Positions 3,925 through 47,350 of a stretch of 64,000 bases of DNA are shown here, piece by piece. The translations under genes were made by a program, and so were the position numbers. Below the pieces are notes generated by a model that was given only the letters and a program-made list of their open reading frames with translations, did no database searches and was not told the DNA's origin. Every line of letters starts with the position of its first letter. Within the stretch, counting starts at the first letter, position 1. The DNA is from Erodium maritimum. Taxonomy: Eukaryota > Streptophyta > Magnoliopsida > Geraniales > Geraniaceae. The DNA is taken from assembly GCA_963921825.1 (NCBI GenBank), contig OY997589.1, forward strand, positions 744,001-808,000, read 5' to 3'.

Positions 3925-4063
3925 AAATGGTTAGAGAAATACAAGACAAGTAAGTGATACGAGATTCTTGCTTTCACACAATGTAATTAGTCTATATTGA
4001 TGATTATAAAAGCCATGTAGGTCTTGACTACAATACACATTCTCTTATTCTCAAATTGCTTAG
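3925..4063 (+). promoter_or_regulatory. Duplicated promoter-like block, copy 1
   Basis: About 140 bp here is repeated almost unchanged at 5113-5262. It includes TATAAAAG at 4005-4012 and ends with CTCTTATTCTCAAATTG just before receptor pseudogene 2. Both copies lie upstream of decayed LysM exons in the same orientation, so I infer the ancestral receptor promoter. The intact genes do not carry an obvious copy. Confidence 0.45.
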
Positions 4064-4079
4064 AGATCGTGCCCCAAAC

Positions 4080-5043
4080 TAATTAACATTCTCCTACGAC
4101 TCCCCTCGTGCAATCGCCAATCTGTTGGCATCGAATGCCTCTGCGATTGCATCCGCCAATCAGGTTTAGGGGGAATCACACAAATTCCCCCCGGAAACGT
4201 TGGTGATCGTGCATGTTTCTTGTTCGGGTTGGGGCATCCACTACAAGCACTACGCGTCATACGCCTCTCAGAAGGGTGATAACTGCACCAACATCGTCGA
4301 AGACACGTACCAAAAGCAAATAGAGTGCGATGATCTCGAAGGCTCAAATGGGAACTTATTCAGTAGGTGAACTCTTGTCCTCTTCTTATAACTCATGCTT
4401 CCTTGTCTGTAATAATTGTTACACTAGAAAACAGAAAAAGCTTTTATTTGTGTTTAAATTATATATTATAAGCAGTGGCGGATTCAAAAGGCTATAGGGT
4501 ATGCCATGGCATACCCTTGTTCAAAAAAGTTATATAAAATCATAGAGCTCTCAGTTATCTTCGATTTGATATCTTACGGACCTAAATCGAAGTTCGTATG
4601 AAAAACTTATGATCATTTTAAGATCTGTATTGCATGTAGTCTGCATGTGCGTGTAGTTTGCATTTATTTTTCTATCACATTTAGTAATAGTCGATGACAT
4701 ACCCTAAATTGTATTCTTGGATCCGCCTCTGATTGTAGGTGTCTCCATCAGGTTAGGATTATTGGGCATCTTCTCGATATGTTATTTCTTACATAAACGT
4801 ATCAAGAAACGAAGAGAGGTGAGGAAGAAGAGGAACTTCTTCATAAAAAATGGAGGCCTCTTGTTGAGGGAACGGTTAGCAGCAAGCAGAAGCACCAACG
4901 AGCAGAAACACTTCACGGCGGAGGAGCTTAAGCTAGCCACGGACGACTACAGCCAACGTCGGTTTCTAGAGCGCGGAGGCTCCGGGAATGTGTACAAGGA
5001 AATTCTACCAGACGGAACCGTGGTGGTTGTATGTGAATCATGA
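4080..5043 (+). pseudogene. Receptor pseudogene 2 (LysM fragment, MITE, truncated WAK-type kinase exon)
   Basis: At 4090-4375 the LysM ectodomain is recognisable: AIANLLAS, PPETLVIV, then SCSGWG where the intact gene has the CxC motif SCSCWG. An in-frame TAG lies before the PPET segment, and the rest of the ectodomain is missing. A hAT-type MITE (4473-4731) follows, inserted at the intron/exon boundary. The kinase exon resumes at 4739 behind ATTGTAG with transmembrane, juxtamembrane FIKNGGLLL and glycine-loop sequence, then stops at about 5035 in VVVV without reaching the catalytic Lys. The gene is dead; the order ectodomain-intron-kinase exon is the same as in the intact copies. Confidence 0.85.
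4473..4731. mobile_element. hAT-type MITE in receptor pseudogene 2
   Basis: The ends are CAGTGGCGGATTC and, inverted, CAGAGGCGGATCC. Flanks ATTATAAG (4465-4472) and ATTGTAGG (4732-4739) agree at 6 of 8 bases, consistent with an old 8-bp target duplication. Relatives occur at 6496-6775 (opposite orientation) and 3323-3512 (truncated). The element at 31587-31810 shares the CAGTGGCGGA terminus. Confidence 0.7.
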
Positions 5044-5567: not shown

Positions 5568-7038
5568 ATGGCTTCATTTTCTTCTATGTGCTCTCTTCTT
5601 CTTCTTGTCATTTTTCTTAATGATCCATCACTAGCCATAGGTTGTTTTTGTCGTCCCGATGAAATGAAGACGTGTGAGTCCTATATCACCTTCCGGGCCT
5701 GTCCTTCCTACGATTCTTCTGGTTCAATTGTGGATCTGTTGGCGTGAAATGCCTCGTCTATTGCATCCACCAATGGGGTGCCGGAGTCACACAAATTCCC
5801 CTTGGAAACGATGGTGATCGTGCCGACATCTTGCTCGTGTTGGGGCCACGTCTACAAGCATCACGCCCCCTACACCTCCCGGGAGTGTGATACATGCACC
5901 AAGATCGTTGAACACACGTACTAGAAACAATTATATCTCTCTGATCTTGTCGCCTCAAATGGGAACTAATTCACATTCCGTTCAGGCCGTCCAAAAGTTT
6001 TTGATGTTGAGAAAAACGTAATGGTGCCTCTCAATTGTGCTTGTCTGAGCCTCGAGCAAGCGGCGAGCAAGGTTACTTACTTGGTTGCTTACTAGTTCGG
6101 TTGAGAGTGTCGTGATCTTACGTGGGATTACATTGCACGACAATTCGATGTCACTTCGGATAGCTTGCACCAAGCTAACAAATGGTGAGGAGCGGCGATG
6201 TTTTTCGCTTAAAAACGTTGGTGATAGTGCCAGCTTCTTGTTCGTGTTGGGGCCACGTCTACAGGCATCATGCCCCTACATCTCTCGGAATGGTGACAAC
6301 TGCACCAAGATACCATACCGAAAACATATAGATTGCTATGATCTTGTTGGCTCGAATGAGAACTATTTCACATTTCGTGTCTGTGGCCGGTGAGAAGATG
6401 TTGATGTTGGGTTAAACATAATGGTTCATCTGGACTGTGTTTGTTCGAGCTTTTTGTAAGCGGCATACAATGTTACCTCCTTGCTGGTTAGTTGGTAGGA
6501 GCGGATCTAGGAATATAATTTAGGGTATATCATTGACCATTGTGAAATGTGCTAGAAAAATAAATGAAAAATACACTCACATGCAAACTGCATGCAAATC
6601 ACGTGCAAATTACGTGCAATTCAGATCTTAAAATGGTCAGAAGTTTCTCATAGGAACTCTGATTTAAGCTCGTAAGATATCAAATTGAAGATAACTGAAA
6701 ACTCTACGACTACATCTAAATTTCTTGGACAAGAGTATGTCATGGAGTATCCTTACCCCTCTGAATTTTCACATATTAGTTGGGATTATTGTTATCTTAC
6801 ATGGGATTACATTGCACGTCAATTCGGTGTCAGTTCAGATGGCTTACGATGCGCTAACAAACAGAGAGGGAGGGACGATGTTTTTGACGGGGGCACGCAC
6901 ACGTATCTCCTGGTTCCTCTGCAAGACACAAACAGTTCGGACATCAAAAAGAAGTTTGCATGCACACCATTATCGTCACGACTGGCATCGTTGATTGCAC
7001 CACCCGCTCCTTCAATCAAATTGGTTACCATACTAGGT
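5568..7038 (+). pseudogene. Receptor pseudogene 3 (LysM ectodomain exon, partly duplicated, MITE-interrupted)
   Basis: An ATG at 5568 opens a convincing signal peptide (MASFSSMCSLLLLVIFLNDP), followed by the LysM ectodomain start CESYITFR. Stops appear almost at once, for example after VDLLA. About 5810-6200 carries degraded LysM1-LysM3 sequence, and about 6205-6485 repeats the CSCWG-to-CACPS section, so two exon copies were fused or one was duplicated internally. A MITE (6496-6775) interrupts the second copy. After it comes LysM3 and the exon end LVTILG with a donor (CTAG then GTGCGT) near 7038. No kinase exon follows. Repeated stops and shifts make it non-functional. Confidence 0.85.
6496..6775. 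mobile_element. hAT-type MITE in receptor pseudogene 3
   Basis: It has a perfect 8-bp target duplication, TTAGTTGG, at 6488-6495 and 6776-6783, inside LysM3 coding sequence. The left end TAGGAGCGGATCTAG and the interior match the inverted element at 4473-4731. The right terminus is diverged. Confidence 0.85.
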
Positions 7039-7049
7039 GCGTATAATTC

Positions 7050-7262
7050 AGTAGGGGTGTAAACGGACCGAGTACCATGTCTGTTGGACATTTAAGAACC
7101 CTGTTCGGATCATACGTGTCCATAATTTTCCTGTCCGGATCATACGTGTCCATAATTTTCCTGTCCGGACCTTGTCTGGATGAAGTTTAAAATCCTGGGT
7201 TTTAGGCCTTTCGGGTACGGACTGGTTCCAGATTTTACCCAAACATGGGCACACCCTCATAA
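7050..7262. repeat. Small MITE-like element with a 30-bp direct repeat
   Basis: The segment starts TAGGGGTGTAAACGG and ends GGGCACACCCTCA, a short terminal inversion common to plant MITEs. Inside, a 30-bp unit beginning CGGATCATACGTG is repeated exactly at 7106 and 7136. No clear target duplication was seen. Confidence 0.5.
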
Positions 7263-9095: not shown

Positions 9096-12079
9096 ATGGC
9101 TGAGGCCCACTATTCAGCTTATCAACGCTTTGTTGTTCTTCTTATTTTTGTGTTCGAGTTCCATACTCATCAATCACTCGGCCAACAACACTACCATGGC
9201 AACGGTTCCGATCCTGACGGTAAGCACTCACGGTATACCTGTACCGGCCCTCCGTGCCAGTCCTATGTCACCTTTCGGTCTCGCCCGCCGTATGATTCGC
9301 CTCTTGCAATCGCCAATCTGTTGGCATCCGAAGGCTCGGCCATTGCATCCACTAATCAAGTTCATGTGGAAACGTACAATTTTCCACCCGAAACGTTGGT
9401 GGTAGTGCCAGTTTCTTGTTCCTGTTGGGGTAACACCTACGTGCATAACACCCCCTACACTCCCCAGGAGGGAGACAGCTACTACCTTATAGCCTACTAC
9501 ATGTACCAAGGTCTTACGTCGAACCAGAGGATCGCTCGCACCAATGAATTCTACGTCGAATTCACCGACAACCTTACTGTTGGGTCGAATATTGTGGTTC
9601 CGGTGAGTTGTGCTTGTCCGAGCCTTGATCAAGCGGCGAACAATGTTAGTTCCCTGCTCGTTTATGTGGTTACATGGGACGATACATTGGATTCCATTGC
9701 ACGTCGATTCAATGTCAGTTCGGATAGCGTGTCCAACGCTAACAATTTGACAGGCGGCCGTATTTACCCGAACACGCCTCTCCTGGTTCCTCTGCAAAAC
9801 ATAAGTTGTTTGGACAGCCAGAGGAACTTTTCTTGCATACCACCGTCACCGTTTGCACCACCCGCTCATTCAGGCAAATTCGTTATCATATTAGGTATGT
9901 TTAAAGTTTCTCAAATATTTTCTACAGTCTCCTGTTTTTTTAGCGAAAGGTGCAATGTTATAACTTTTAGAATTGATTACATTATTGTGTATCGAGGAAT
10001 ATGCTACTCGATTACGAAAGGTCAGCATGAATGAACAATGATTCACTGAGTCTTTTCATATCAGAACCGTCACAGACGGTATTTTGATGTCCCACGAGCA
10101 AAGACAAATGACGAGGGGTGGGGGGTGGGTGGGACGGGGTACCGGAACTCAGAGAGCTCAACAATGGTGATGGTGGGAGGCAAAGCACCGTCTAGGGACC
10201 CCTCCCAGGACCAGTCCTTGATGCTCCCCTCCTTAGAGAATTCCTCGATTCTCTGTTCGACACACATTGATCCTGCAAAGACAAACTAAAAAAAGACCAT
10301 TTCGATTAGCCAGATTCATAATCGTGAAAGGGGTCGATGCAGTTGCAGCGGTGGAGGCCAGGGAGAAGGACGCGCCGGCTGCGGCTGTAAGTCCGACGAC
10401 GGCGACTTCAGAGGCGACTCTAGAAATGGCGGCGGCATCCGAGACGGAGGTGGCATCAGAAGCAGCGACGACAATAGGGACGACGACGGCTTCAAGGATG
10501 GCGACGGCAGCATCAGGGACGACTGTTGTAGAGACGGAAACCCCCGGGGGCGGTGGATTCAGGGGTGCTTCAGGGGCGGTGACGGCGACTACAGAGGCGT
10601 CGGCGGCTTCATGCGGCTTGAAGGTTGGTTGAAGCCGAGGTGATCCAGACGACACCCATCGGTATTGCAAAGGGGGAACCGAACATGGTCACTAACCTTT
10701 TATATGATTTTGTGAGTTGATCGTAAATCATTTATATGCCTTTTAACGGTGATCAATAGTTTAGAATAATTTGTTGTTCGTCATGTAAAGCTCCTAACTC
10801 ACATATAGATTCCCTTGTGGATCCCTAACACATTCCAATGCGTGCTTTAACTTGATTTTACTATGTCATTATTGTCTTCATAGGACTCTCCATTGGCATA
10901 GGATTTGTCTGCTTGTTCTTCATCTGCTACTTCTCATATCACCACATCAAGAAACGAAGACACAGGATCAACAAACAGAACCTGTTCATCAAAAACGGAG
11001 GTCTCTTGTTACAGAAACGATTAGCATCGAGCAGAAGCACCGACAACCTTAAACTCTTCACATCAGAGGAGCTCGAGAGAGCAACAGACAACTACAACAA
11101 GAGCCGGTTTCTGGGTCACGGAGGCTACGGGAATGTCTACAAAGGAATGTTACTCGACGGAACCATAGTCGCTGTCAAGAGATCGAAAACGATGGACAAA
11201 ACCCGAATCGAGCAATTCATTAACGAAGTAGTCATCTTGTCACAAATCAATCACCGAAACGTAGTCAAGCTACTAGGTTCTTGTCTGGAGACAGAGCTCC
11301 CCTTGCTTGTCTACGAGTTCATCCCCAAAGGATCTCTCTCCGACCGCATCCATGTGTCCGAACCCAAATCCTCGTACCTTTCGTGGAGTTTAAGGTTCAG
11401 GATTGCTTGTGAAGTGGCCGGAGCAGTTGCTTATATGCATTCTGCAGCTTCGATCCCGATCTTTCATCGCGACATCAAGTCATCGAACATACTTCTCGAC
11501 GACAACTACAAAGCAAAAGTGTCTGATTTCGGGACATCAAGATCAGTCCCGTTCGATAAAACGCACTTAACGACCGCAGTGCAAGGCACGTTCGGGTACT
11601 TGGATCCTGAGTACTTCCAATCGGGCCAGTTCACAGACAAGAGCGACGTGTACAGTTTTGGGGTTGTGCTCGTAGAGCTTCTCACCGGGCAAAAACCCAA
11701 CTCTGGCGACGAAAATGGTAACGTTGTGTCTCGATTCGTTTCGTTGGTCAATGAGGGGAGGTTGGAGGAGATTTTGGATGCTCGGATCGCCGGAGAAGTG
11801 AGTAAGAAAGAGGTCGTTGTGATCGGGAAGCTCGTAAAGAGATGTTTGAGGCTCAACGGTAAGAAGAGACCGTCGATGAAAGAGGTAGCGATGGGACTTG
11901 AAAATTTGAGGAAGTCTCAAAATTGCTTAGACATTTGTGAGGAGCATGAAGTGTTGGTGAGTGAAGATATGTCTGTTTATGACTCTGAGGATGAAAATGA
12001 TGAAATGAAGAACACTTTTGAGGGAGGAAGTTTTGCCGGCATTTCATTAGATATGGACTCCATCTATCCTAGAGACTAG
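9096..12079 (+). CDS. Receptor copy A: LysM ectodomain fused to a WAK-type kinase
   Basis: Two exons, 9096-9894 and 10884-12079, joined in phase 1 (TTAG/GTATGT ... CATAG/GACTC), encode 664 residues. Residues 1-30 are a signal peptide. Residues 49-233 form a LYK4/LYK5-like ectodomain with three LysM units separated by CxC pairs (C108/C110 and C172/C174); the third unit is about 188-233. Exon 2 opens with the transmembrane helix (about 268-288), then KKRRHR and FIKNGGLLL, the juxtamembrane signature of wall-associated kinases. The kinase keeps its essential residues: glycine loop 344-352, Lys365, Glu381, HRD Asp463 and DFG Asp481. It reads as WAK family, not LYK. By family knowledge LysM ectodomains of this type bind chitin-like glycans at the plasma membrane; the joint function is inference. 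An ATG at 9063 would add 11 residues. The intron holds a repeat insertion (10040-10675). Confidence 0.9.
10040..10675 (-). mobile_element. GC-rich repeat insertion in the intron of receptor copy A
   Basis: On the minus strand the part at 10050-10240 matches the plus-strand segment 32098-32310 closely, with shared phrases GGACTGGTCCTGGGAGGGGT and GACGGTTCTGATATGAAAAG. The remainder is GC-rich and has open frames on both strands by composition only. I infer a retroposon-derived insertion of unknown class. It leaves the splice sites of the host intron intact. Confidence 0.55.
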
Positions 12080-13370: not shown

Positions 13371-16052
13371 TTAGAGCCTGACGGGCAAGCCATAGTTGTG
13401 GAAAGTCCGGATCTTCCCGTCCCATCCGGCCGTTACTATCACAAGGCCCCATGTCTCCGGAAAAACCTTATGGCCCATCAAATCTCGGCCCGATCCATCC
13501 CAAGACGGAAGTTCCTCCTCGGGCCAAGTCGCCGAGCCTCTGCATGGCCCGTCGAACCAATTCCCGAGCGAAAATCGCTCGGCGTCCCTGGCCCGAGAGG
13601 CGCCCTCCCGAGGGCCGCCACCGCCCGGGCTCCTCGAACCCGTCCCCGACCAGGGCACCGCCAGGGAGGCGCCTTCGGACAGGAAATGTTCGCAGGAACG
13701 AACCGACCCTCGTTTACGCTTCGAGGGCGAGACAGAGGAACCGTCGTGGTTCCAAACGTAAACGCGCGAATCCTCCCCGACCGAGACGACGTGCTTCCCC
13801 GTCGACGTGAACGTGGCCGATACCTGACTCCCCGACTTCGCACAACCTGTGCCGTCAAATCATTACAGGATTCAGTTAAGGAGCTTTCGGGTACGATCTC
13901 TAACCAACTCGTTCTTATCGTAGAACGAACTAAAGTCCATACCTTTGTACTTACGAACAACCTCAGCCTTCTCAAACAAACGAATCTTCGAGTCGTCAGA
14001 CGTGATCATCACTCTTCGAGATTCGTCATGGGAAAACTGCAAGTGCCAAAACCAACAATGTCAACAAAACAGTGTTATAGAGCAAACATCTTAGGCATCA
14101 AATGAGATTCAAATTATTCGATACCTGAATTCCCGTGATTCTGCTCGATGTTCTCTTCCTACCGGCAACATTGACTCGTGTATCGAGCTGAATCTCCGAC
14201 CCTGCGCAAACCAAACAACCGATCAAGAACTGGAAACTCTCAGAATCAGGAACATTGAGATTAGGAGAAGACAAGAACGTACCTGAAGCATCATAGAAGC
14301 GGCACGTTCCTTCTATGGATCCAACTACAAAACCCTGCGTTCATTAAGGAAAGATAGATGATTACCAAACATGGATTGAATTTCTGGCGTAGAGGATCAA
14401 AAGACTGTTATATCATTTTCAGCTAAGAATGATTACAATTAGCTATAATTGCAACAACAACAACAACAAAAAAGCATCCTAATTGTAAATTGTAGCCCTC
14501 ATCTCTGATAATTGCATAAATGTGTCCTAAACTAGCATTTTTGTTGTACTTAGTATAAAATTATTCTTAAATGACGATTTTACCCTTGAAATTTTAAATC
14601 TAAAAATAATAAATTAAAAAACAAAAAATACAGTACTTTCATCTCCCTTCATTTTCTTCCTTTTTCTATTTCCAGTGAAATAGAATTAAGAAATGTGAAA
14701 ATTCAAGATTTTTTGTTTTTTACTTGCTATTTTTGAAGGGTAAAATTGTTATTCTGAAACAAATTTATACAAAGTGTAATAAAAGGCGAGTTCAGGACAA
14801 GTAAAAATGAGAATTTGTTTCAAAGATGAGGGCTATAACTTGTAAAAAGTAAATACGTCAGGGTACTTTTTTGCAACTATCCCTTAGAATTATACCTTTC
14901 CATCAGGCTGATAACATATAGCTGTTATAATGTAGCTTGCATCAGTCCAATCCACAACTCGCTTCTCGGGTATGCTCCAAATCCGAACTATTCCATCAAT
15001 GGAGCCAGTTATGAATAGATTTTCATCGACTGGATGGAACTGAATACATGTCACTGATTTCACAAGAAAAGACATAAGTATGCAACAATCGAATCATAAT
15101 CATAATCTTTATGAGCATAATTACCATAATTATTGTGATGGAAGACATGTAAACATTCATCACAGCCCATTGGCCAAAGTCGCACAGTTTGATCCTTGGA
15201 AGATGAAAGGAGACTCTGCATCCGAAAACACGATTTAGTTTTTTTTTTTTTTAAATAGGGAAGCAATGGTAATGTAAAGTTTTGGCTACTTTGACTTACA
15301 TTGGAACCGGACCAAGTAAGCTCCAAGACATCGCTGGTATGGCCATGAAGCTCCTGCAATGGCTTCTCCTCCAGACAAAAAACCTTATCCGGAATCACAA
15401 CCGAGGAAGAACATAGGTTGCTGTAGGAACCGGGTTCATTGGAAAAATCAAAATCTCGATGACAGGCATTTGTTGACTTGACTTGCCAAATACGGACTAC
15501 TCCATCTTCACCACCACTCGCTAAGTACTTCCCATCCGGGCTAAACTTCATGGTTCTGATCAAGCCTTTATGGGCTTGAAGTTCTTGGCCCGTGTAGAGC
15601 GCGGTGAGCTCCTTGACCCTCTTGCTATTGTGCTTCACCTCCGTTCTTCCAAACCTTGATTTTGATGTTTCAAGACCCGGTTTTGATGATTTGGGCCTTC
15701 TCCCTTTTGTTTTGAAGCTTAGGCGCTTCCACCAACTCTTCCCTTCCTTGTCGTTAACACGAAGAACATCACATTCTTCAACTAATGTATTGGCTTCAGT
15801 ACTCGCTTCACTTCTACAACATGTTACATCTTCTTCCTCCTCAGACAACCCTAGAGAGCTTGGTTCAGCTCCACTATGCTCCATGATCCTGTTAAGTTCA
15901 TTGGCCTGAAATTCACACACCGATTCACCAGACATTACCTCTTCCTCTGCTACATCAGACTCCTCAGACGACAAACAATCCTTGGAATCGAAGAATACGT
16001 CGTGTTCTCTATGATCACAGCTTGGCATTGCTTGTTCTCTAAACCAACACAT
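13371..16052 (-). CDS. WD40-repeat protein (plant WDR44-like)
   Basis: Seven exons on the minus strand join in frame with GT-AG borders: 16052-15300, 15215-15125, 15053-14896, 14334-14283, 14201-14125, 14036-13943 and 13846-13371, giving 566 residues. I use the ATG at 16052 ([12 protein letters not shown]); an in-frame extension upstream has no ATG. The first 150 residues are acidic and low-complexity (EESDVAEEE). WD repeats then begin at [20 protein letters not shown] and run through [61 protein letters not shown] and [13 protein letters not shown]. The last repeat is [12 protein letters not shown], ending YGLPVRL. Such proteins act as scaffolds; the specific partner is unknown. The gene converges with receptor copy A, and its broken duplicate lies at 1815-2775. 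Exon 7 is markedly GC-rich compared with the others. Confidence 0.9.
14440..14885. mobile_element. Long-inverted-repeat MITE in WD40 intron 3
   Basis: The right end, read inward, begins AGGGATAGTTGCAAAAAAGT. The left end carries the matching CTATAATTGCAA, expanded by a CAA microsatellite. Arms continue as TAGCCCTCATCT in inverted orientation, with ACGATTTTACCC sub-terminal. The same family occurs at 60791-61415, 61446-61560, 61951-62352 and 63121-63449. It makes up most of intron 3 (14335-14895). Confidence 0.75.
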
Positions 16053-17120
16053 ACCTATTCCATCAATCACTACTACTCCCTAACACTCCTTATAAACCGA
16101 AAAAACCGAACAATTCAGCAGGACAAGGTTTGAGCTTCACTACCTAAATTGGTGCAAAAACAATGGTTTATTTCTTCATCAGCAGATGGTAATGCCAAAA
16201 CTGAATATATAATCAACAAAAGCAAGGCCAAGTACTAGGAATCAACACCAAAACCTTAAACACCACCAATGACCTGTCCTAAAACTAGATTAAACAATGA
16301 TTAACAGTTCCCTAAGACCTGGAAACGGTACAAGAATCTAACACAAGGGAACAAAATTAAAAAAAATACCCAAAAATCAGAGCTTCGATGGTTTCAACAA
16401 CAACAATATAATAACAATTACCTCATCGGTTTCAACGCGAAGCAACGAGAATTCAACAAAACCAGCACCGACCCTCCATTGATTGTGGCTTCTGCAACAC
16501 CTCGGAGCTCGATTTCAATCCCGATTCCACACCAAACCCAAAACCCTCCAAGTTCTCTGCACCGAACCCATCAACGATTAAGAGATTGGACCACCATTTG
16601 CAGAGATTGAGAGAGATTGGCGGAGAAAGGAAAGGTGGGTATGAGGTCGGAATCGAAGAGGATTGAGCTATAAGTCTCGTGACAGTCAAAACCGCTAATC
16701 AAGCCCACAAAGCACAAAACCCAGAAGAGCCGAGACTCGAGAGAGAGAGAGTGACGAGTCAAAATGTAGTGGCACACAGTAATGGAGAGAGTCGCGAATC
16801 GGAGATTTTTGTAGCGGTCTCGAGATCTGGGTTTTGGGGAGAGATCTGACCTCTCTTCCGAAGGCGCACGAACGACAAGCCACGAGCGGCGAGGCCCGAG
16901 AAACAAGACGCTAGACCTTGAGCTAGTAGCTATGGCTTCTCTAGATTGTGCTTTTGTGTTCTGTAAATCAAAGAGACAGGCAATAAATATGTGAAAGTGA
17001 TGTTGATGATTTGGGATGATAATGTTGGGATTAAGAAACTGAATTAAGTTTTTGATTCTCTTGGTAAATTGAGAAATCAAAATACCCAATTTTGATTGTG
17101 ATTTTAATTCTAATCTCAAC
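16053..17120 (-). promoter_or_regulatory. Leader and promoter region of the WD40 gene
   Basis: Upstream of the start codon the minus strand carries purine/pyrimidine-biased DNA (GAGAGAGAGAG and CTCTC runs around 16730-16760). Possible leader splice signals lie near 16430. No TATA box stands out. ORFs in this region look accidental. Confidence 0.35.
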
Positions 17121-21521: not shown

Positions 21522-24422
21522 TCAGTCTCTGGGATAGATCGAATCCATGTTCAACGACACACAAGCTAAACTCTCATCCACAAACCCGAGCTTCATTTCA
21601 CAATCCTCATCCTCAGAGTCCAACCCAGACTCATCATCTTCTCCAAACAAAGCTTCATGATCTTTACAAACATCTAAACAAGCTTGAGACTTCACCAAGT
21701 TCTCAAGCTCAATCTCCACCTCCTTAATGGAAGGTCTCCTCTTCCCATTCAACCTCAGACACCTCTTCACAAGCTTCCCGATCACAACCACCTCTCTCTT
21801 GCTCACTTCTCCGGCGATCCGGGCATCCAAAACCTCCTCCACCCTCTCCTCATTGACCAACGAAACGAAACGGGACACAATGTTACCGTTTTCATTGCCG
21901 GAGATGGGTTTTTCTCCGGTGAGTAGCTCTACAAGCACGACCCCGAAACTGTACACGTCGCTCTTATCCGTGAACTGTCCCGACCGGGCGTACTCAGGAT
22001 CCAAGTACCCGAATGTGCCTTGAACTCCGGTAGTTAAGTGTGTTTTATCTACCGGGACAGACCTGGACGTCCCGAAATCAGACACTTTTGCACTGTACTT
22101 TTGGTCGAGAAGAATGTTCGATGACTTGATGTCTCGATGGAAGATCGGGATCGAAGCAGCTGAGTGCATGTATGCAACAGCTCCGGCGACTTCACAGGCA
22201 ATCTTGAACCTTAAACTCCACGAAAGACACGAGGATTCGGGTTCGGACACATGGATGAGGTCAAAGAGAGATCCATTGGGTATGAACTCGTAGACTAGCA
22301 ACGGGAGCTCTGTCTCCAGACAAGAACCTAAGAGCTTGACCACGTTTCGATGATTGATCTGAGACAAGATGGCTACCTCGTTGATGAATTGCTCGATTCG
22401 GGTTTTGTCCATAGTTTTTGATCTCTTGACAGCGACTATGGTTCCGTCGAGGAGCATTCCTTTGTAGACATTCCCGTAGCCTCCCTGACCCAGAAACCTG
22501 CTCTTGCTGTAGTTGTCTGTGGCTCTCTCAAGCTCCTCTGCTGTGAAGAGTTTAAGGTTGTCGGTGCTTCTGCTCGATGCTAATCGTTTCTGTAACAAGA
22601 GGCCTCCGTTTTTGATGAAGAGGTTCTGTTTCTTGATCATGTGTCTTCGTTTCATGATGTGTCGGTATAGGAAGTAGCAGATGAAGAACAAGCACACGAA
22701 TCCTACGCCGATGCAAAGACCTGGTAAAATCAGGCAAGAACTTGTTATTGAGACGAATATAGATTGAAATTTGTCAGCAAATATGAACATGTTGAAAAAC
22801 TATTTCGAGGAACATAAACAAACCTAGTATGGTAACCTTTTCGTAAAAACCTAGGGATGGCTAATAGAGAAATGTGCATATTTAAGTGTAGCTGAGTGAG
22901 ATTATCCCTTACAGAAAAGAACATAGATCGAATTTTGTCAGCAAATATGACTCTCGACGTAAACTCTCAGCAAGACAAGAACTCGATAAATTTCAACACG
23001 TTCAATAACTATTCAAGGATCATAGACAAATCTAGTACGGTAATCAGGCAAGAAAATGTTACAGAAATTAACATAGATCGAAATTTGTCAGCAAATATGA
23101 CTCTTAACGTAAATTATCAGCAAGACAAGAACTCAATACACTTCAGCATGTTCAATAACTATTCAAGGATCATAGACAAACCTAGTAAGTATGGTAATCA
23201 GGCAAGAAAATGTTACAGAAATGAACATAGATCGAAATTTGTCAGCAAATATGACTCTCAACACAAACTCTAAGCAAGACAAGAACTCGATAAACTTCAA
23301 CATGTTCAATAACAATTCAAGGATCATAGACAAACGTAGTATGGTAATCAGGCAAGAACGTGTTACAGAAAATGAACATAGATCGAAATTTGTCAGCAAA
23401 TATGACTCTTAATGTAAGCTCGGTGACTTCAAATGTTCAATGACTATTCAAGGATCATAGACAAACCTAGTATGGTAATCAGGCAAGAACACGTTATAGA
23501 AACGAACATAGATCAAAGTTAGTCAGAAAATATGATTCTTAACCTTGAATCTCAGCAAGACAAGAACTCGATAAACTTCAACAAATTAAAGAACTATCTT
23601 ACAAAACATAGACGAACCTAGAATGGTAACCAATTTGGCAGAAGGAGCAGGAGGAGACGGCTTGCACAAGAAACTCCTCTGGTTTTCAGAACAACTCGTA
23701 TCTTGCAGAGGAACCAGGAGAGGAGAGAACGGGTAAATAACATCGTTCTCCGTCAAATTATTCGCTTTAAACAAGCTATCCAAGCTAACACCAAATCGAT
23801 TTCCAATGGCATAAAGCGTATCACCCCAAACAATCATATAAACCAGCAACGAACTAACCTTGTCCTTGGCTTGCTCATAGCTTGGACAAGCACAAGTCAC
23901 AGGCACCATAATCATTGAGCCGGCTAGAAAAGTCCCACCTAAGGTACCGCCTCCATTGATGAAGTAATCGTTCGTGCCAGCAACGGTTTGACAAGCAGTG
24001 AGGCCTTGGTAGGTTTCATTGGCGATCATGAAGTAGGACTGGTTCATCTGGATTGTGTAAGGGGCGTTGTGGAAGTATGTATTGCCCCAACATGAGCAAG
24101 AAACTGGAACCGTGACTAATGTTTCGGGTGGGAAGGTGTAGGACTTTGACGGGGCTTTGTTGGTGGATGCAATCAACGAAGCTTCTGAGGCCATGAGATC
24201 GGCGATTGAAAGAGGAGAATCGTAGGGTGGTCGAGATCGAAAGGTGAGGTAGGATTGGCATGACTTTTGAGGGCCGTTACAAGTGTAGCCCCGGTATTGG
24301 TCCTCGGAACTGTTACAGTTTAGAGCTTTGTTTCCTCGGTATTGTTGTTGGCTTAGCGATGGATGAAACTGAAACTGCAAAATCAGAAGAACAAAGCATA
24401 GCTGCAGCTGCAACATCCCCAT
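21522..24422 (-). CDS. Receptor copy B: LysM ectodomain fused to a WAK-type kinase
   Basis: Two minus-strand exons, 24422-23618 and 22720-21522, joined in phase 1 (CTAG/GTTCGT ... ACCAG/GTCTT), encode 667 residues. The start MGMLQLQLCFVLLI is the first ATG in frame and opens a signal peptide ending near SLSQQQ. The ectodomain has SCSCWG and TCACPS motifs bracketing the LysM units, and a third LysM at VYMIVWGDTLYAIGNRFGV. Exon 2 carries a transmembrane helix, FIKNGGLLLQKRL, GQGGYGNVYKG, VAVKRSK, HRDIKSSN and SDFGTSRS, all intact. Its kinase is very close to copy A's; the ectodomain is more diverged, including an extra FINGGGTLGG stretch. It converges with copy A on the WD40 gene. Its intron holds about six copies of a 150-bp repeat. 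An active membrane kinase is expected; the ligand is unknown. Confidence 0.9.
22725..23617 (-). repeat. About six tandem 150-bp repeats filling the intron of receptor copy B
   Basis: The phrase AGAT(C/T)GAA(A/T)TTTGTCAGC recurs near 22760, 22925, 23075, 23229 and 23380, with a diverged copy at 23510. Spacings are 165, 150, 154, 151 and 130 bp. Every unit also carries, on the gene strand, a near copy of the true 5' splice site: ACCATACTAGGTTTGTC against the functional ACCATTCTAGGTTCGTC. The array therefore seems to have grown from the exon-1/intron junction. Confidence 0.9.
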
Positions 24423-26904: not shown

Positions 26905-28149
26905 TCAGAAAGGCATGATATGGGTAGTCTTAGTGTCATAGCTTGAGAGACAAGGCTTAGAACTAACTCTAAAGATCTTGAGCAAATCGCCGGACATATG
27001 CTTCACCGGCGCCGAGCAATTGCTCTGCATCAGGAGCAGTATCTTCGTCAACCCATTGTTCTTCGCCACCGCCTCCTGACACTTCTGGTCTCTGGCCAAG
27101 TAGCAAACGCTCCACAGCACCGTCACAGCGTGCTGCGTCGCCGCCGCAGAGACCTTCAGAAGCTTCTGGACGATCGCCGGAACGCAAGCCCAGTCCTCCG
27201 ATATCGCCGACCGGCCTTCTTTGCACGCGGAGGCGAGTTCGAGAAGCTTCAGCACCTTCTCGGTTACGGAAACAGTCGAATTCGAGTCCGGCGAGAGCAA
27301 TTTCGACAACGATTTGATCAATCCGAGATCGACTAGCTTGATTCTCGTCCGCCTCGGCATTGAGATTGCGACGAGGCACGACAAGCTTGCTTCGATGAGT
27401 TTCTGATCGTTCTCGAGGCTGATTAGCTTCAGCAATTCCGGTAACAGGCCGTCTTTCTCAGCTATCAGGTGCTTCGATTCGGCGTCGATTGCGATCGATT
27501 CCAAAACCCTAGCGGTTGAGACTCTCGATTCCGAGCTTCCTTGTTGCAGCACCAGGAGCATTGACGACAAGCAATCGCGGTCGCTCTTCAGCATCAAGCT
27601 CACCAGACGATCACGATCCTCGACCGCGTCGCGAATCGAGTCCACCACCGCCACGGCCTGCTCGAGGAGGCTCACGCTCTTACACACGGCGGCGCCGTCG
27701 ACATTGCCGATGAAATCAACCAGAAGCGCCAAAAACCCATCGATTCCCGCGAGAAACTTCCCGTTCCCCTCCGATTCCCGCGCGAACGAGACGATCTTCG
27801 CCAGAGAATCCAAACACCCCTCGCTCCTCCCGTCCAGATCCCTCACCAGACTCGCCACCTGGTCCGGCGACGGGACGGGCGAGTCCGGCGAGTCGACTCG
27901 GCGGCGGGAGACCGACTCGGCCCAGATCCGGATCAACCGCTGGAGCGTCCGGTTGGGGACGACCTCCTTGGTCTGGAGGACCTGCATGGTGGCGGGGCAG
28001 GTGTTGTTGCCGCCGTCGAGCCACCGCTGGATGCTGGCGCGGTCGTAGGTGACGCCGGTGCAGAGGCTCACCGGCGATTTCATGACGTCGAGCGAGATCG
28101 GGCACCGGAAGAAGCTCGGGACCGTAATGTACAGCTCGTCCCTCACCAT
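26905..28149 (-). CDS. PUB27: U-box E3 ubiquitin ligase with ARM repeats (PUB27/PUB28-like)
   Basis: A single exon of 414 residues starts at the ATG at 28149. The N-terminal U-box (about 9-83) contains FFRCPISLDVMKSPVSL, GVTYDRASIQRWLDGGNN and CPATMQ, the E2-binding fold shared by plant PUB proteins. An ARM-repeat region follows, for example ESKHLIAEKDGLLPELLKLI and HAVTVLWSVCYLARD. The C-terminus SYDTKTTHIMPF is the conserved end of the PUB27/PUB28 group, so the protein is full length. These ligases transfer ubiquitin from an E2 to substrates in the cytosol, and relatives act in stress and immune signalling; the substrate here is unknown. The CDS is very GC-rich at its 5' half compared with its surroundings. 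The leader at 28150-28240 is pyrimidine-rich on the gene strand. Assignment to PUB27 rather than PUB28 is tentative. Confidence 0.9.
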   Translation of the reverse strand: MVRDELYITVPSFFRCPISLDVMKSPVSLCTGVTYDRASIQRWLDGGNNTCPATMQVLQTKEVVPNRTLQRLIRIWAESVSRRRVDSPDSPVPSPDQVASLVRDLDGRSEGCLDSLAKIVSFARESEGNGKFLAGIDGFLALLVDFIGNVDGAAVCKSVSLLEQAVAVVDSIRDAVEDRDRLVSLMLKSDRDCLSSMLLVLQQGSSESRVSTARVLESIAIDAESKHLIAEKDGLLPELLKLISLENDQKLIEASLSCLVAISMPRRTRIKLVDLGLIKSLSKLLSPDSNSTVSVTEKVLKLLELASACKEGRSAISEDWACVPAIVQKLLKVSAAATQHAVTVLWSVCYLARDQKCQEAVAKNNGLTKILLLMQSNCSAPVKHMSGDLLKIFRVSSKPCLSSYDTKTTHIMPF

Positions 28150-28689
28150 TGTTGAGCTTGAGATTCTGTTTGGGAGAAAAGAAAATGGAGCCGAGAAAGT
28201 GGAGGAAAATAAGTTGGTGTTTGGGTGGGTTTAAAGAGAGGAAGAGAGAGAAAAAAGTCAAAGGATCGGTGACGTCACCCATTTTACTTTTTAATAAGAT
28301 CTATGAAATTTTAAATTATTAAAAAATAAATATTCTTCCGACTTTTAGTCAAATGTGTGGAAGATTTTCGTACGTTCCTTTACTCAGGGTTCAGCTTGGA
28401 GGGTTTGGTTCAGTGTTACGCTCTTACCGTAGTAAGCTTTCGTGAAACGTTCCCTGACCGTTAGATTAGTTTCAGAGGCCGTAATGAGTGGCCAGAAGGA
28501 AATCGACGGTTGAATGGGAGCCGGATATTCGGAGTTACTCAAGGCCATGATTAGTTTTAATTTTCTAATATTTAATTTTTCTAACGTTAAGAGTGGTAAG
28601 TTATTTTCATTTTGAATTGTAATAGTGATGAGGAAAGACAAAATCTAACCGAAACTATTTTTAAAAAATAACTAATGAGTCAATATATC

Positions 28690-31810: not shown

Positions 31811-32097
31811 GACGAGTTCAATGTCGTTTTCAATGGTTATTTTTTTGAAAAGAACTGAGAACAAAGTTGTTTGTTGGTTTGTTAGGGAAGCGCGTTCTAT
31901 TCTTGTTTTTTAGTGCTCAATACTTTTTTCCTGACGTACTCTAATATATCGTTAAACTCTGATAATTAATAAAATTCGCACATTCCAGTAAAAAACTAAC
32001 AAAAAGTGTTATAAAGAAATGAATATATCACGATATTTTTGTACAATCATTCTTACCTCTTTTTCTCTCTCTTTAATTGGACATAATCCTACATTAG

Positions 32098-32310
32098 GGA
32101 GGTGAGCATCGAGGACTGGTCCTGGGAGGGGTCCCTAGATGATGCTTTGTCTCCCACCATCACTATTACTGTCGAGGTCTCTGATCTCTCCGGTACCCCG
32201 TTCCCCCCACCCATATTCTGTCATTGCCCATTGGGCACCAATTCCTGCCCGTGGGACATCAAAATACCGTATGTGACGGTTCTGATATGAAAAGTCTCAG
32301 AAAGTAATGA
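32098..32310 (+). repeat. Copy of the repeat found in the intron of receptor copy A
   Basis: This matches 10050-10240 in inverted orientation, including GGACTGGTCCTGGGAGGGGT and GACGGTTCTGATATGAAAAG. It is flanked by AT-rich DNA without a gene. Confidence 0.65.
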
Positions 32311-38352: not shown

Positions 38353-38958
38353 TCAACTCGTTTCATTGTAATTACAAATATACCCTTCCGGTCGAACCGG
38401 CAAAATGACGATAACGACCGGAACATCTTCCAAGACCGCCGGGACCGGCGGGCGACTAAACGACACCGTTCCGGCGATCTTCTCGCTCGTTTCCACGAGG
38501 CAGCTCCTGCACGTGGGGCACGTGGAGTGCGCGCCGAGCCACTTGTCGATGCACCGGACGTGGAAGCCGTGGTGGCACTTCGGCAGCAGCCGGAGCCGCT
38601 CACCGGCGGCGAACTCCGACAGGCATATCACGCACTCGGTGCCCAATCCGGGGAGCTCCTTCTCCGGCGAGTATCTCACCACCGCAAAGGCCTTCACCGC
38701 TTTTCGCCTCAACCCGGTCTTGACGGCGGCGGCGCCGCCGCCGGAGCGGTCGGAGAGAAGGGCGGAGCAACACCGGATAATGGAGTTGATTCCGAGAGAG
38801 CATATGAGAGCACATACCAGCACGGAGAGGACCATAACTACATTCTTGTCGGCACCACCGCCGTTGGCGGCGGCCGGAGGATACGCGGCGGCGGAGAGGG
38901 TGGTGGTGGTGTGAAGAAGCAATCTTCTTGAGTAGAAATCTCCCACTAGATAATACAT
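38353..38958 (-). CDS. ATL-type RING-H2 E3 ubiquitin ligase, copy 1
   Basis: An intronless gene of 201 residues starts [16 protein letters not shown]. One transmembrane helix lies at about 40-62, then the basic [10 protein letters not shown] segment that precedes the RING in the ATL72-ATL80 subgroup. The RING-H2 is at 109-150: ECVICL, then [12 protein letters not shown] with the conserved Pro, IDKW with the conserved Trp, and CPTC. All eight zinc ligands are present. The tail ends [13 protein letters not shown], shared by all three copies. ATL proteins are membrane-anchored ligases, often rapidly induced by elicitors. It is the left member of a same-strand trio at about 4-kb spacing. The upstream TATA/telo-box is at 39035-39050. 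Confidence 0.92.
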
Positions 38959-39034
38959 TGTTAGTATAGCTAAGTTGATGATTAAATTTTTTTTCTTCTA
39001 AGAGTTGATTTGATCATTTTGGAAATGTTAATTA

Positions 39035-42665: not shown

Positions 42666-43277
42666 TCATACACACACCTCACTTGTTTCAACATAATTAC
42701 GGATATACCCTTCCGGTTCAACCGGCAAAATGACAATAACGACCGGAACTTCTTCTACCGCCACCGGAACCGCCGGCCGGCCAGAAGACGCCGTTCCGGC
42801 GATCTTCTCGCACGTTTCCACGAGGCACCCCCTGCACGTGGGGCACGTGGAGTGCCCGCCGAGCCACTTGTCGATGCACCGGACGTGGAAGCCGTGGTGG
42901 CACTTCGGCAGCAGCCGGAGGCGCTCGCCGGCGGCGAACTCCGACAGGCATATCACGCACTCGGCGCCCAACCCGGGAAGCTCCACCTCCGGCGCGTACC
43001 TAACAGTCGCGAAGGCCTTGACCGCTTTCCGCCTCAACCCGGCGGCGGCGGCGCCGCCTGGTTGGCCGGAGAGACGGGCGGAGCACCGCAACGTGCACCG
43101 GATGAAGGAGTTGATTCCGAGACAGCATATGAGGGCGCATAGTAGCACGGAGAGGATCATGAGGACGTTCGAGTCGGTGTCCATGTCGCCGCCGTTGGGG
43201 GACGGGGCGGCGGCGGCCGGAGGTGACGTGGCGGCGGAGAAGGTGGTGGTGTGGAGAAGTAATCTTCTTGTAGACAT
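42666..43277 (-). CDS. ATL-type RING-H2 E3 ubiquitin ligase, copy 2
   Basis: Intronless, 203 residues, beginning [15 protein letters not shown]. The transmembrane helix is at about 38-58, [15 protein letters not shown] comes before the RING, and the RING-H2 starts at Cys107/Cys110 with [16 protein letters not shown] and CPTC intact. The C-terminal P(V)[13 protein letters not shown] tail matches copies 1 and 3. It is very close to copy 1 through the RING, more variable in the Ala/Pro-rich N-terminus. The coding sequence is GC-rich in AT-rich surroundings. Its TATA/telo-box lies at 43330-43345. By family, an ER or plasma-membrane ubiquitin ligase. Confidence 0.92.
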
Positions 43278-43329
43278 TTTTAGTGGCTAAGTAATTGGTG
43301 ATTGATATTTTTTTTGGAATTGATAGTTA

Positions 43330-45976: not shown

Positions 45977-46603
45977 TTATAACGGTTCACTTGTTTCAGA
46001 GTAATTACAAATATACCCTTCCGGTCCAACCGGCGAAACAATGACAACCACACTAGACTCTTCCACTGCCACCGGAACCTCCGTCCGGCTAACCGCCGGC
46101 GGAGGCAACGCTGTCCCAACGATCTTCTCGCACGTGCCCACGAGGCAGTCTCTGCACGTGGGGCACGTGGAGTGCGCGGCGAGCCACCTGTCAATGCACC
46201 GGACGTGGAAGCCGTGGTGACACTTCGGGAGCAGCCGGAGCCGCTCGCCAGCGGCGTACTCCGACAAGCATATCACACACTCACTTCCCAATCCCGGAAT
46301 AAGCCTCATCATCTCCGGCGAGTATCTAACCGTAGCAAACGCCTTCACCGCTTTCCGCCTCAACCCGCCGCTGACGGCGGCGGCGCCGCCGTCGGAGGAG
46401 GAGCACCACCGTAATGTGCAAGAACGGATTAATGAGTTGACCCCGAGAGCACATAGCACCACGAAAAGGATGAAAACAACATAGGTGTCGACGGCGGCGG
46501 CGGGGTCCGTGACGGCGGCGGACGGCGGAGATGCGGCGGCGGGGTGAAGGAGGAATCTCCTTGAGTGGAAATCTCCGGCGAGATGAGAAATAGAAGTGGA
46601 CAT
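45977..46603 (-). CDS. ATL-type RING-H2 E3 ubiquitin ligase, copy 3
   Basis: Intronless. I start at the ATG at 46603 (MSTSISHLAGDFHSRR), giving 208 residues. Two earlier in-frame codons do not fit: the ATG at 46645 lies inside the TATA/telo-box region and so upstream of any transcription start it would direct. The helix is about 41-58. [16 protein letters not shown] precedes the RING-H2 ([26 protein letters not shown]), all intact. The tail [13 protein letters not shown] matches the other copies. It is the most diverged of the three, with extra residues MMRLI before PGLGSE and a Tyr for Phe after CLSE. Confidence 0.9.
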   Translation of the reverse strand: MSTSISHLAGDFHSRRFLLHPAAASPPSAAVTDPAAAVDTYVVFILFVVLCALGVNSLIRSCTLRWCSSSDGGAAAVSGGLRRKAVKAFATVRYSPEMMRLIPGLGSECVICLSEYAAGERLRLLPKCHHGFHVRCIDRWLAAHSTCPTCRDCLVGTCEKIVGTALPPPAVSRTEVPVAVEESSVVVIVSPVGPEGYICNYSETSEPL

Positions 46604-46647
46604 TTTTTTTTGGAGTGTTTGGTTGATCTTTTTGGAAATGTTCATTG

Positions 46648-46663
46648 TTTTAGGGTTTATGTA
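46648..46663 (-). promoter_or_regulatory. TATA/telo-box, ATL copy 3 (diverged)
   Basis: The gene strand reads TACATAAACCCTAAAA: the telo-box is intact but the TATA box has changed from TATATAAA to TACATAAA. It ends 45 bp upstream of the chosen ATG. Confidence 0.6.
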
Positions 46664-47350
46664 GAGAGGTGTTTCCAAAATGGTTGATTTTTTTTTAGGG
46701 TTTTAATATAATAATGTGATGATAAAAAGAGTGGGGTTTAATTAAAAAATTATATATAATACTTTTCATCACTTTTTCTTCTAACAAAATTAATTTAAAC
46801 AATTAATTGGCTTAGTGGAACACTAACAAAAATACTAATCTATGTCAAAGATCCAAAAGAAAAGTACTAATCAGACAAAAAAAATAAGGTCATCTAGTTA
46901 TGATAACCACATGTTTAATTTATTCAGTCATGATATTTACAGATAGATTTTGTAACAAATAAAACATATAATATGCATCTTGTTATATAAAGAGCTTTAA
47001 TACAATTTCTTTGCTGATCAAAAAAATATATTCACTGTTTATCGATATTTGGAAGCTATTGTTTTTACTTTGTTTTGGTTCTCTCGAGGCAGTTTTCGTG
47101 AGTTCTATCACTCTCGGGTTTTATTTAACGAAAAACGAAAGCCCGAAAAGTTTAAAACCTAATTCATAAAGAGTTTAGTTGAATATATTTTGTTATAATT
47201 TTCGTTCCCTGTAATGATTTAAGAAATACTAATATTTATTTGGGGGATAATATGGAGAATCTGTATACCATACATGCAAGTGTAATGAAAATTAGATCTC
47301 TATGTATTTGGAATCTCCACTGACTTCTTTTATAACATGTGATCAATATA

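Follow-up and report, generated by a model that had tools for sequence, protein, structure and literature searches.

The window analysed here is a 64,000-nucleotide stretch of the Erodium maritimum genome (contig OY997589.1, positions 744,001 to 808,000). It contains two intact genes, designated A and B, which belong to a known chimeric family of LysM receptor-like kinases (LysM-RLKs), termed Group III, LysM-III or LYRIV, in which a LysM ectodomain of the LYK4/LYK5 type is joined to a kinase of the wall-associated kinase (WAK) type. Sequence comparisons make it very probable that these receptors derive from a WAK gene whose 5' part was replaced, at a point inside its EGF exon, by the 5' part of a LYK4/5-type gene, and that genes A and B sense glycans and have an active kinase of their own. 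An earlier note on this DNA, made from the letters alone, had proposed that a LYK4/LYK5-like ectodomain and a WAK-type kinase with an active look form one receptor, and Pfam matches, catalytic residues and phylogenetic trees all agree with it. The note had also proposed a new signalling combination, which did not hold, since LysM–WAK chimeras have already been described as Group III/LYRIV and both of our trees place genes A and B there. As a member of a known family, the window gene itself is of modest interest; worth following are the proposed break within the EGF exon, the broader distribution of the family and a probable second fusion.

Structure of genes A and B

Gene A lies on the plus strand, with its start ATG at 9096 and its stop at 12079. 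The spliced open reading frame (9096–9894 joined to 10884–12079) encodes 664 amino acids without an internal stop, and the splice sites are consensus-like and in phase 1 (donor TAG/GTATGT, acceptor TTCATAG/G). Gene B is an intact inverted paralogue of 667 amino acids on the minus strand, recovered by a repeat search, with two exons and with its intron in the same place and phase. Three degraded stretches of the same family stand upstream of gene A. The features are as follows.

9096–9894, plus: gene A exon 1 (signal-peptide-like start, LysM1–3, two CxC motifs, linker; its last base is the first of a Gly codon, phase 1)
9255–9425, plus: LysM1 (LysM1_NFP_LYK), residues 54–110, Pfam 2.6e-27
9438–9605, plus: LysM2 (LysM2_CERK1_LYK3_4_5), residues 115–170, Pfam 1.2e-11
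9654–9794, plus: LysM3 (LysM3_LYK4_5), residues 187–233, Pfam 6.2e-18
9795–9893, plus: gene A linker and first helix residues; two of the four EGF-half cysteines left, then a Pro-rich stretch
9895–10883, plus: gene A intron, phase 1, 5' of the transmembrane helix
10884–12079, plus: gene A exon 2 (transmembrane helix, WAK-type juxtamembrane motif, kinase, acidic tail, stop)
11093–11887, plus: gene A protein kinase domain (Pkinase, residues 337–601), catalytic residues kept, Pfam 2.3e-48
23618–24422, minus: gene B exon 1; ectodomain 58% identical to gene A over 257 aligned residues
22721–23617, minus: gene B intron, phase 1, position as in gene A
21522–22720, minus: gene B exon 2 (transmembrane helix and kinase), 85% identical to gene A over 398 residues
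2872–3343, plus: degraded helix/kinase-start fragment of the gene A/B family
4059–5043, plus: degraded copy of the gene A/B family (LysM fragment 4059–4349, helix/kinase-start fragment 4729–5043)
5586–7056, plus: degraded LysM-exon fragments (5586–6203, 6203–6495 and 6775–7056)

The signal peptide and the transmembrane helix of gene A were assigned by eye. The triple-LysM ectodomain with both CxC motifs in exon 1, as described in the earlier note, is confirmed by three Pfam LysM matches and by the motifs CSC and CAC; its transmembrane/kinase unit with WAK motifs is likewise found in exon 2, which has the Pkinase match and carries FIKNGGLLL, SEELERATDN and HRDIKSSNILL. No GUB_WAK_bind or EGF model matched either gene in Pfam searches at E 0.001.

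The introns of the two genes showed no BLAST similarity to one another. Pairwise Nei–Gojobori comparison of genes A and B, without a significance test, gave a ratio of nonsynonymous to synonymous divergence (dN/dS) of 0.25 for the ectodomain, where dS was near saturation at 1.22, and of 0.17 for the exon-2 products (dS 0.50), with 0.12 for the kinase alone. A chance pairing of LysM and kinase exons is excluded, because gene B shares the layout, the introns are unrelated and dN/dS is low. In the 763 Mb genome, genes A and B were the top two kinase matches and the next full-length match was at most 65% identical (135 of the 2116 candidates were scored). One further locus (L024) gave a partial kinase match of 68% over residues 1–176 and has a WAK-like appearance; no LysM match was found in the 3.5 kb around it.

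These comparisons also bear on the possibility, which we consider unlikely but still the strongest of the competing explanations, that sensing of N-acetylglucosamine (GlcNAc) has been lost, either for another ligand, given a fast-changing ectodomain and a missing EGF half, or in a slide toward pseudogenes. The ectodomains of genes A and B are less conserved than the exon-2 parts (58% versus 85% identity), and degraded copies adjoin gene A, one of which (6775–7056) retains the exon-end sequence and a GT where the donor would be. Nevertheless, the ectodomain dN/dS is low, and both genes have retained the CxC motifs and three LysM matches. We therefore favour retained glycan sensing for genes A and B.

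Synonymous differences between the two genes were only 0.08–0.11 per site in the juxtamembrane region (residues 290–349; 10952–11131 versus 22652–22473), whereas windows of the ectodomain had 0.43–0.80 and the tail as much as 0.67; this looks like gene conversion. Within the gene B intron region, four tandem copies of a unit of ~150 nt occupy 22909–23652. A stretch of the gene A intron (10163–10235) has a 90% identical inverted copy 22 kb off, at 32095–32167, perhaps a mobile element.

Family membership and ancestries of the two halves

Known members of the family are MtLYR5, MtLYR6, LjLYS20, LjLYS21 and PpLYR5. Buendia et al. (PMC6207691) list all but LjLYS21 as LYRIV and, citing Arrighi et al. 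2006, describe their kinases as near the WAK subfamily. Group III has two exons and classical kinase residues according to Richards and Rose (PMC6625017), who attribute the proposal of a chimeric origin to Arrighi (2006) and to Lohmann. Genes A and B, as read from their sequences, have the LysM triplet with CxC spacing, the WAK-like kinase, the classical catalytic residues and the two exons of this family; they share with their Group III relatives a LYK4/5-kind triplet and a kinase from another receptor-like kinase family, and differ from most of them in that half an EGF domain in the linker has been largely lost. A Lotus japonicus LysM-type receptor kinase (P0104), which is presumably LjLYS20 or LjLYS21, fell in the Group III clade in both the kinase and the ectodomain trees.

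Twelve of twelve catalytic positions were intact in gene A, in gene B and in all 18 other Group III rows. In contrast, the Gly loop was broken and DFG changed to NFG in 9 of 9 LYK5 rows, and the HRD Asp was replaced by Asn in 8 of 9. The claim that the gene A kinase keeps Lys, Glu, HRD and DFG, unlike the degenerate LYK4/LYK5 kinases, was thus correct. The gene A kinase had a median identity of 72% to the 18 Group III rows, 63% to 17 WAKs and 35% to 9 LYK5s, and was 37% identical to CERK1.

In the kinase tree (51 rows), Group III including genes A and B formed one clade of 20 rows with a support of 99/92, placed among the WAKs and outside the LYK clade, with genes A and B at an unresolved fork inside it. 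The approximately unbiased (AU) test rejected the grouping of Group III kinases with LYK5 (p-AU 0.001) and with CERK1/9gb9 (p-AU 0.002). Two results weigh against this placement: the fork uniting WAK and Group III versus the outgroups was weak (73/89), and a broader arrangement that held Group III with all LYK and LYK5 rows together was not rejected (p-AU 0.083). In the ectodomain tree (41 rows), Group III again comprised 20 rows with both window genes, supported at 100/97 and separate from LYK5. Since the kinase tree puts Group III among WAKs while its ectodomain is of the LYK4/5 type, the sequences indicate that the two halves have different ancestries, and each half looks like it had a single origin.

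Genes A and B resemble two further known systems. LYK4/LYK5-type receptors (LYR, or Group II) have the same ectodomain layout, CxC motifs and Pfam LysM models, but their kinases are degenerate and of another family, and none of their 102 linkers contains the EGF half. WAK and WAKL genes have the same transmembrane–juxtamembrane–kinase exon, NGG motif, phase-1 intron 5' of the helix and WAK-clade kinase, but carry a GUB_WAK_bind plus EGF ectodomain in place of the LysM triplet.

Half of a WAK EGF domain in the linker

For the comparison of linkers between LysM3 and the helix, 97 proteins including genes A and B were classed as Group III, of which 10 gave no linker and 87 were used (85, without genes A and B, in profile comparisons). 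Two real Group III members (P0049 and P0115) fell among 25 other proteins and are not in this count. The LYK5-type set of 120 proteins gave 102 linkers, 18 proteins being without one. Ten WAK EGF domains were cut out, and one without CxC (P0002) was dropped, which left nine for the consensus and for the single-sequence model.

A cysteine pattern, C.{4,9}C.C.{6,16}C, was found in 71 of 87 Group III linkers (genes A and B counted) and in 0 of 102 LYK5-type linkers. The consensus of 12 hand-picked Group III linkers, SCxxNPxxFFCxCPNGYLxDGxxxGLxC, stands beside that of the second half of the nine WAK EGF domains, CxNTPGSYxCSCxxGYxGDGxxxxGC. A profile of these 12 linkers matched the WAK EGFs with a probability of 97.5%, and Pfam scans of them returned EGF-type families, the first member under its curated cut-offs. 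The profile of 85 Group III linkers matched the nine WAK EGFs with a probability of 97.1% (E 6.8e-11) and an independent set of five EGFs of WAKs from this genome with 90.0%, while LYK5 linkers gave 0.02% and 0.0%, respectively. Among 40 column shuffles, the highest probability against the nine-EGF set was 46.7%.

Several results weigh against an EGF origin of the linker. The best of 40 column shuffles against the five-EGF set reached 99.9%, and when the full gapped alignment was shuffled, 12 of 400 shuffles outscored the real profile, whichever of the four settings was used. Single linkers carried a weak signal: 50 of 87 scored above 5 bits, but so did 34 of 1740 shuffles and 127 of 1740 shuffles with fixed cysteines, and the top cysteine-fixed shuffle (26.8 bits) exceeded the best real linker (26.5 bits). 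Genes A and B themselves are without most of the EGF half (gene A 2.2 bits, gene B no score), having lost its CxC...C part.

The high-scoring gapped shuffles are apparently an hhalign artefact of gap columns; in one such case, just 3 aligned columns gave a score of 132. Once gap-rich columns had been taken out, the true linker profile scored 46.5 (97.4%) against the nine-EGF set and 28.2 (92.0%) against the five-EGF set, and none of 400 full shuffles and none of 400 shuffles with the four cysteine columns fixed matched the real score for either set. The best shuffles scored 21.2 and 20.5 (full) and 28.0 and 23.2 (cysteine-fixed); the best cysteine-fixed shuffle still had a probability of 91.2%, with its score of 28.0 set against the real 46.5. 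Of the linkers scored singly, 39 of 85 exceeded all 20 of their own cysteine-fixed shuffles. On these sequence comparisons, most Group III relatives retain half a WAK EGF domain between LysM3 and the helix.

Neither PMC6625017 nor PMC6207691 uses a word starting with 'EGF' in its main text. The terms 'group III LysM' and 'EGF-like' were not found together in any of the literature matches listed in one search. As these negatives do not extend to Arrighi 2006 and Lohmann 2010, we make no claim that the EGF remnant is new to the literature.

The intron and the site of the join

Besides genes A and B, 23 kinase loci of this genome were read, 22 of them distinct (L025 is the same as L003), and 13 entered a splice table. 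Nine loci (L015–L018 and L020–L024) are outside this table, four of them without a kinase frame above 250 amino acids. Seven of the 13 WAK-like loci (L003, L005, L006, L008, L010, L013 and L014) had both phase-1 sites in the same place as genes A and B. In these seven, the intron splits a Gly codon whose first base closes the EGF-type exon (G/GT donor); its other bases start the following exon (AG/G acceptor), which continues into the helix. Exon 2 of gene B opens with GTCTTTGC, and the corresponding exon of the WAK locus L005 with GTCTTAGC.

The remaining six loci are less favourable. Only half of the site pair was checked in five of them, namely the donor in L009 and L012 (both G/GT) and the acceptor in L011 (AG/G), L019 (AG/G) and L004 (AG/C). 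The sixth, L007, is a WAK gene without an intron at this place, whose EGF and kinase stand in one open frame; its sequence shows a clean intron loss.

Because Group III relatives keep a WAK EGF half and WAK genes share the phase-1 intron, the simplest reading is that the WAK donor contributed the intron and that the two genes were joined farther 5', within the EGF exon of the WAK. In this scenario, a WAK gene in an ancestor of the core eudicots would have had its 5' part replaced by that of a LYK4/5-type gene, up to and including LysM3. The break would lie inside the EGF exon, and the WAK intron, helix and kinase would have been carried along whole. The EGF half would then have been retained in most descendants and largely lost in genes A and B.

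The earlier note had rightly placed a phase-1 intron between ectodomain and helix, but its suggestion that the two parts were brought together by exon shuffling at that intron, a LysM exon being spliced to a WAK transmembrane–kinase exon, is probably wrong. The intron of genes A and B does separate the two parts, and the LysM-encoding parts of LysM-RLK genes are nearly intron-free according to PMC6207691. However, an EGF half matching WAK EGFs lies between LysM3 and the helix in most relatives, which are known from proteins alone, and in the WAK genes of this genome the EGF sits on the exon directly upstream of the same intron. As the WAK EGF lies upstream of the intron and the relatives keep half of it, WAK exonic sequence is expected on the LysM side of the intron. 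We therefore set exon shuffling aside, as a rather improbable origin, in favour of an exonic break. Weakest by far is the explanation that the gene A model, built from sequence alone, misjoins two adjacent genes, one for a receptor-like protein with LysMs and the other a piece of a WAK: without splicing, the frame of exon 1 does continue to a stop at 10034, but gene B repeats the two-exon layout with an unrelated intron, the published family has two exons (PMC6625017), and LysM1 and kinase matches occur together in 97 of the 120 listed homologues of the whole protein (at least 7363 proteins passed the cut-off).

Range of Group III across plants

PMC6625017 reports Group III from rosids only. 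Our trees show that, by sequence, the group reaches beyond rosids into Ericales, Caryophyllales and Saxifragales, with members from Bertholletia (P0107; Ericales, asterids), Nepenthes (P0047; Caryophyllales) and Liquidambar (P0252; Saxifragales) in the Group III clade of both trees. The Nepenthes and Bertholletia proteins were the first branches of the clade in the kinase tree and stood together in the ectodomain tree. Given these members in three further orders, the LysM–WAK fusion would predate the split of the core eudicots.

A probable second fusion in Proteaceae

A Macadamia protein of 913 amino acids (P0250) contained LysM1–3, a Pro-rich linker, GUB_WAK_bind, a WAK domain, a weak EGF match (E 0.02) and a kinase. 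A Protea protein (P0263) is a partial relative, running from LysM to GUB_WAK and WAK without a kinase and with a similar Pro-rich linker; its N-terminus is retrotransposon-like, indicating a poor gene model. The Macadamia protein came from a search with the Bertholletia ectodomain, in which the best 120 of 761 matches were listed. Like genes A and B, it combines a WAK-type kinase with a LYK5-like LysM triplet; unlike them, it keeps the Pro-rich linker and the WAK ectodomain, and its kinase clustered with two Kingdonia WAKs (100/92) instead of Group III.

Placing the Macadamia kinase with Group III was rejected by the AU test (p-AU 0.0034). The Macadamia and Protea ectodomains clustered with LYK5s in the free tree, and forcing them with Group III was not rejected (p-AU 0.21). 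On the kinase result, the Macadamia protein is not favoured as an intermediate of the Group III fusion. It is possible that its annotation is wrongly joined, but this is less likely because the junction is common to two genera and no LYK5 helix or kinase lies between the parts. The Macadamia protein is probably a second LysM–WAK fusion, as far as its sequence can tell. We lean slightly towards two or more separate origins of such fusions, one by a break in the EGF exon before core-eudicot diversification (Group III) and another in Proteaceae, where a LYK5-like triplet and a Pro-rich linker would have been set before a complete WAK from GUB_WAK to kinase. If this is true, plants repeatedly couple a glycan sensor of the LYK5 type to a wall kinase that signals autonomously. 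The word 'macadamia' was not found among the literature matches listed in one search.

Proposed function and significance

Judging from the families of their two halves, the products of genes A and B would be plasma-membrane receptors that use the LysM triplet to bind a glycan with GlcNAc units; the first guess at this ligand is a chitin-type oligomer. The receptor may act alone or with a LYK/CERK1-type partner. Its own active WAK-type kinase would signal directly, while LYK5-type pseudokinases rely on the kinase of a partner; we infer that genes A and B combine glycan sensing by the ectodomain with autonomous kinase signalling.

LYK5-type receptors bind glycans but carry a degenerate kinase, and Group III, having swapped this dead kinase for a live WAK kinase, would be a natural experiment on the output of a chitin-type sensor. 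The EGF remnant and the shared intron allow this swap to be traced in concrete terms, and the Macadamia and Protea proteins offer for comparison a second example that is built differently. Many listed homologues bear the database name 'wall-associated receptor kinase-like', and with many Group III members named in this way, surveys of both WAK and LysM genes may miscount.

Other features

Two other domain arrangements appeared in the match lists. A Colocasia protein (P0243) has two LysM triplets followed by a LYK5-like kinase, and proteins from Juglans (P0121) and Ziziphus (P0241 and P0242) are listed with LysM models but without a kinase model.

No Rfam family matched anywhere in the 64-kb window at gathering cut-offs. 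Near gene B, an intact U-box and ARM-repeat protein of the plant PUB-type ubiquitin ligase kind is encoded at 26905–28230 (minus; Pfam). A RING-H2-like pattern of Cys and His is shared by three open frames similar to one another (38353–38997, 42666–43286 and 45977–46702, minus), which resemble a tandem ATL-type family. A direct repeat of 83% identity links 2646–2761 with 13878–13993; the second copy adjoins open frames that appear WD40-like by eye, and the nearby frame 15060–16079 (minus) has a WD40 match in Pfam. At 550–849 and 874–1173 stand identical 300-nt direct copies, with starts 324 nt apart.

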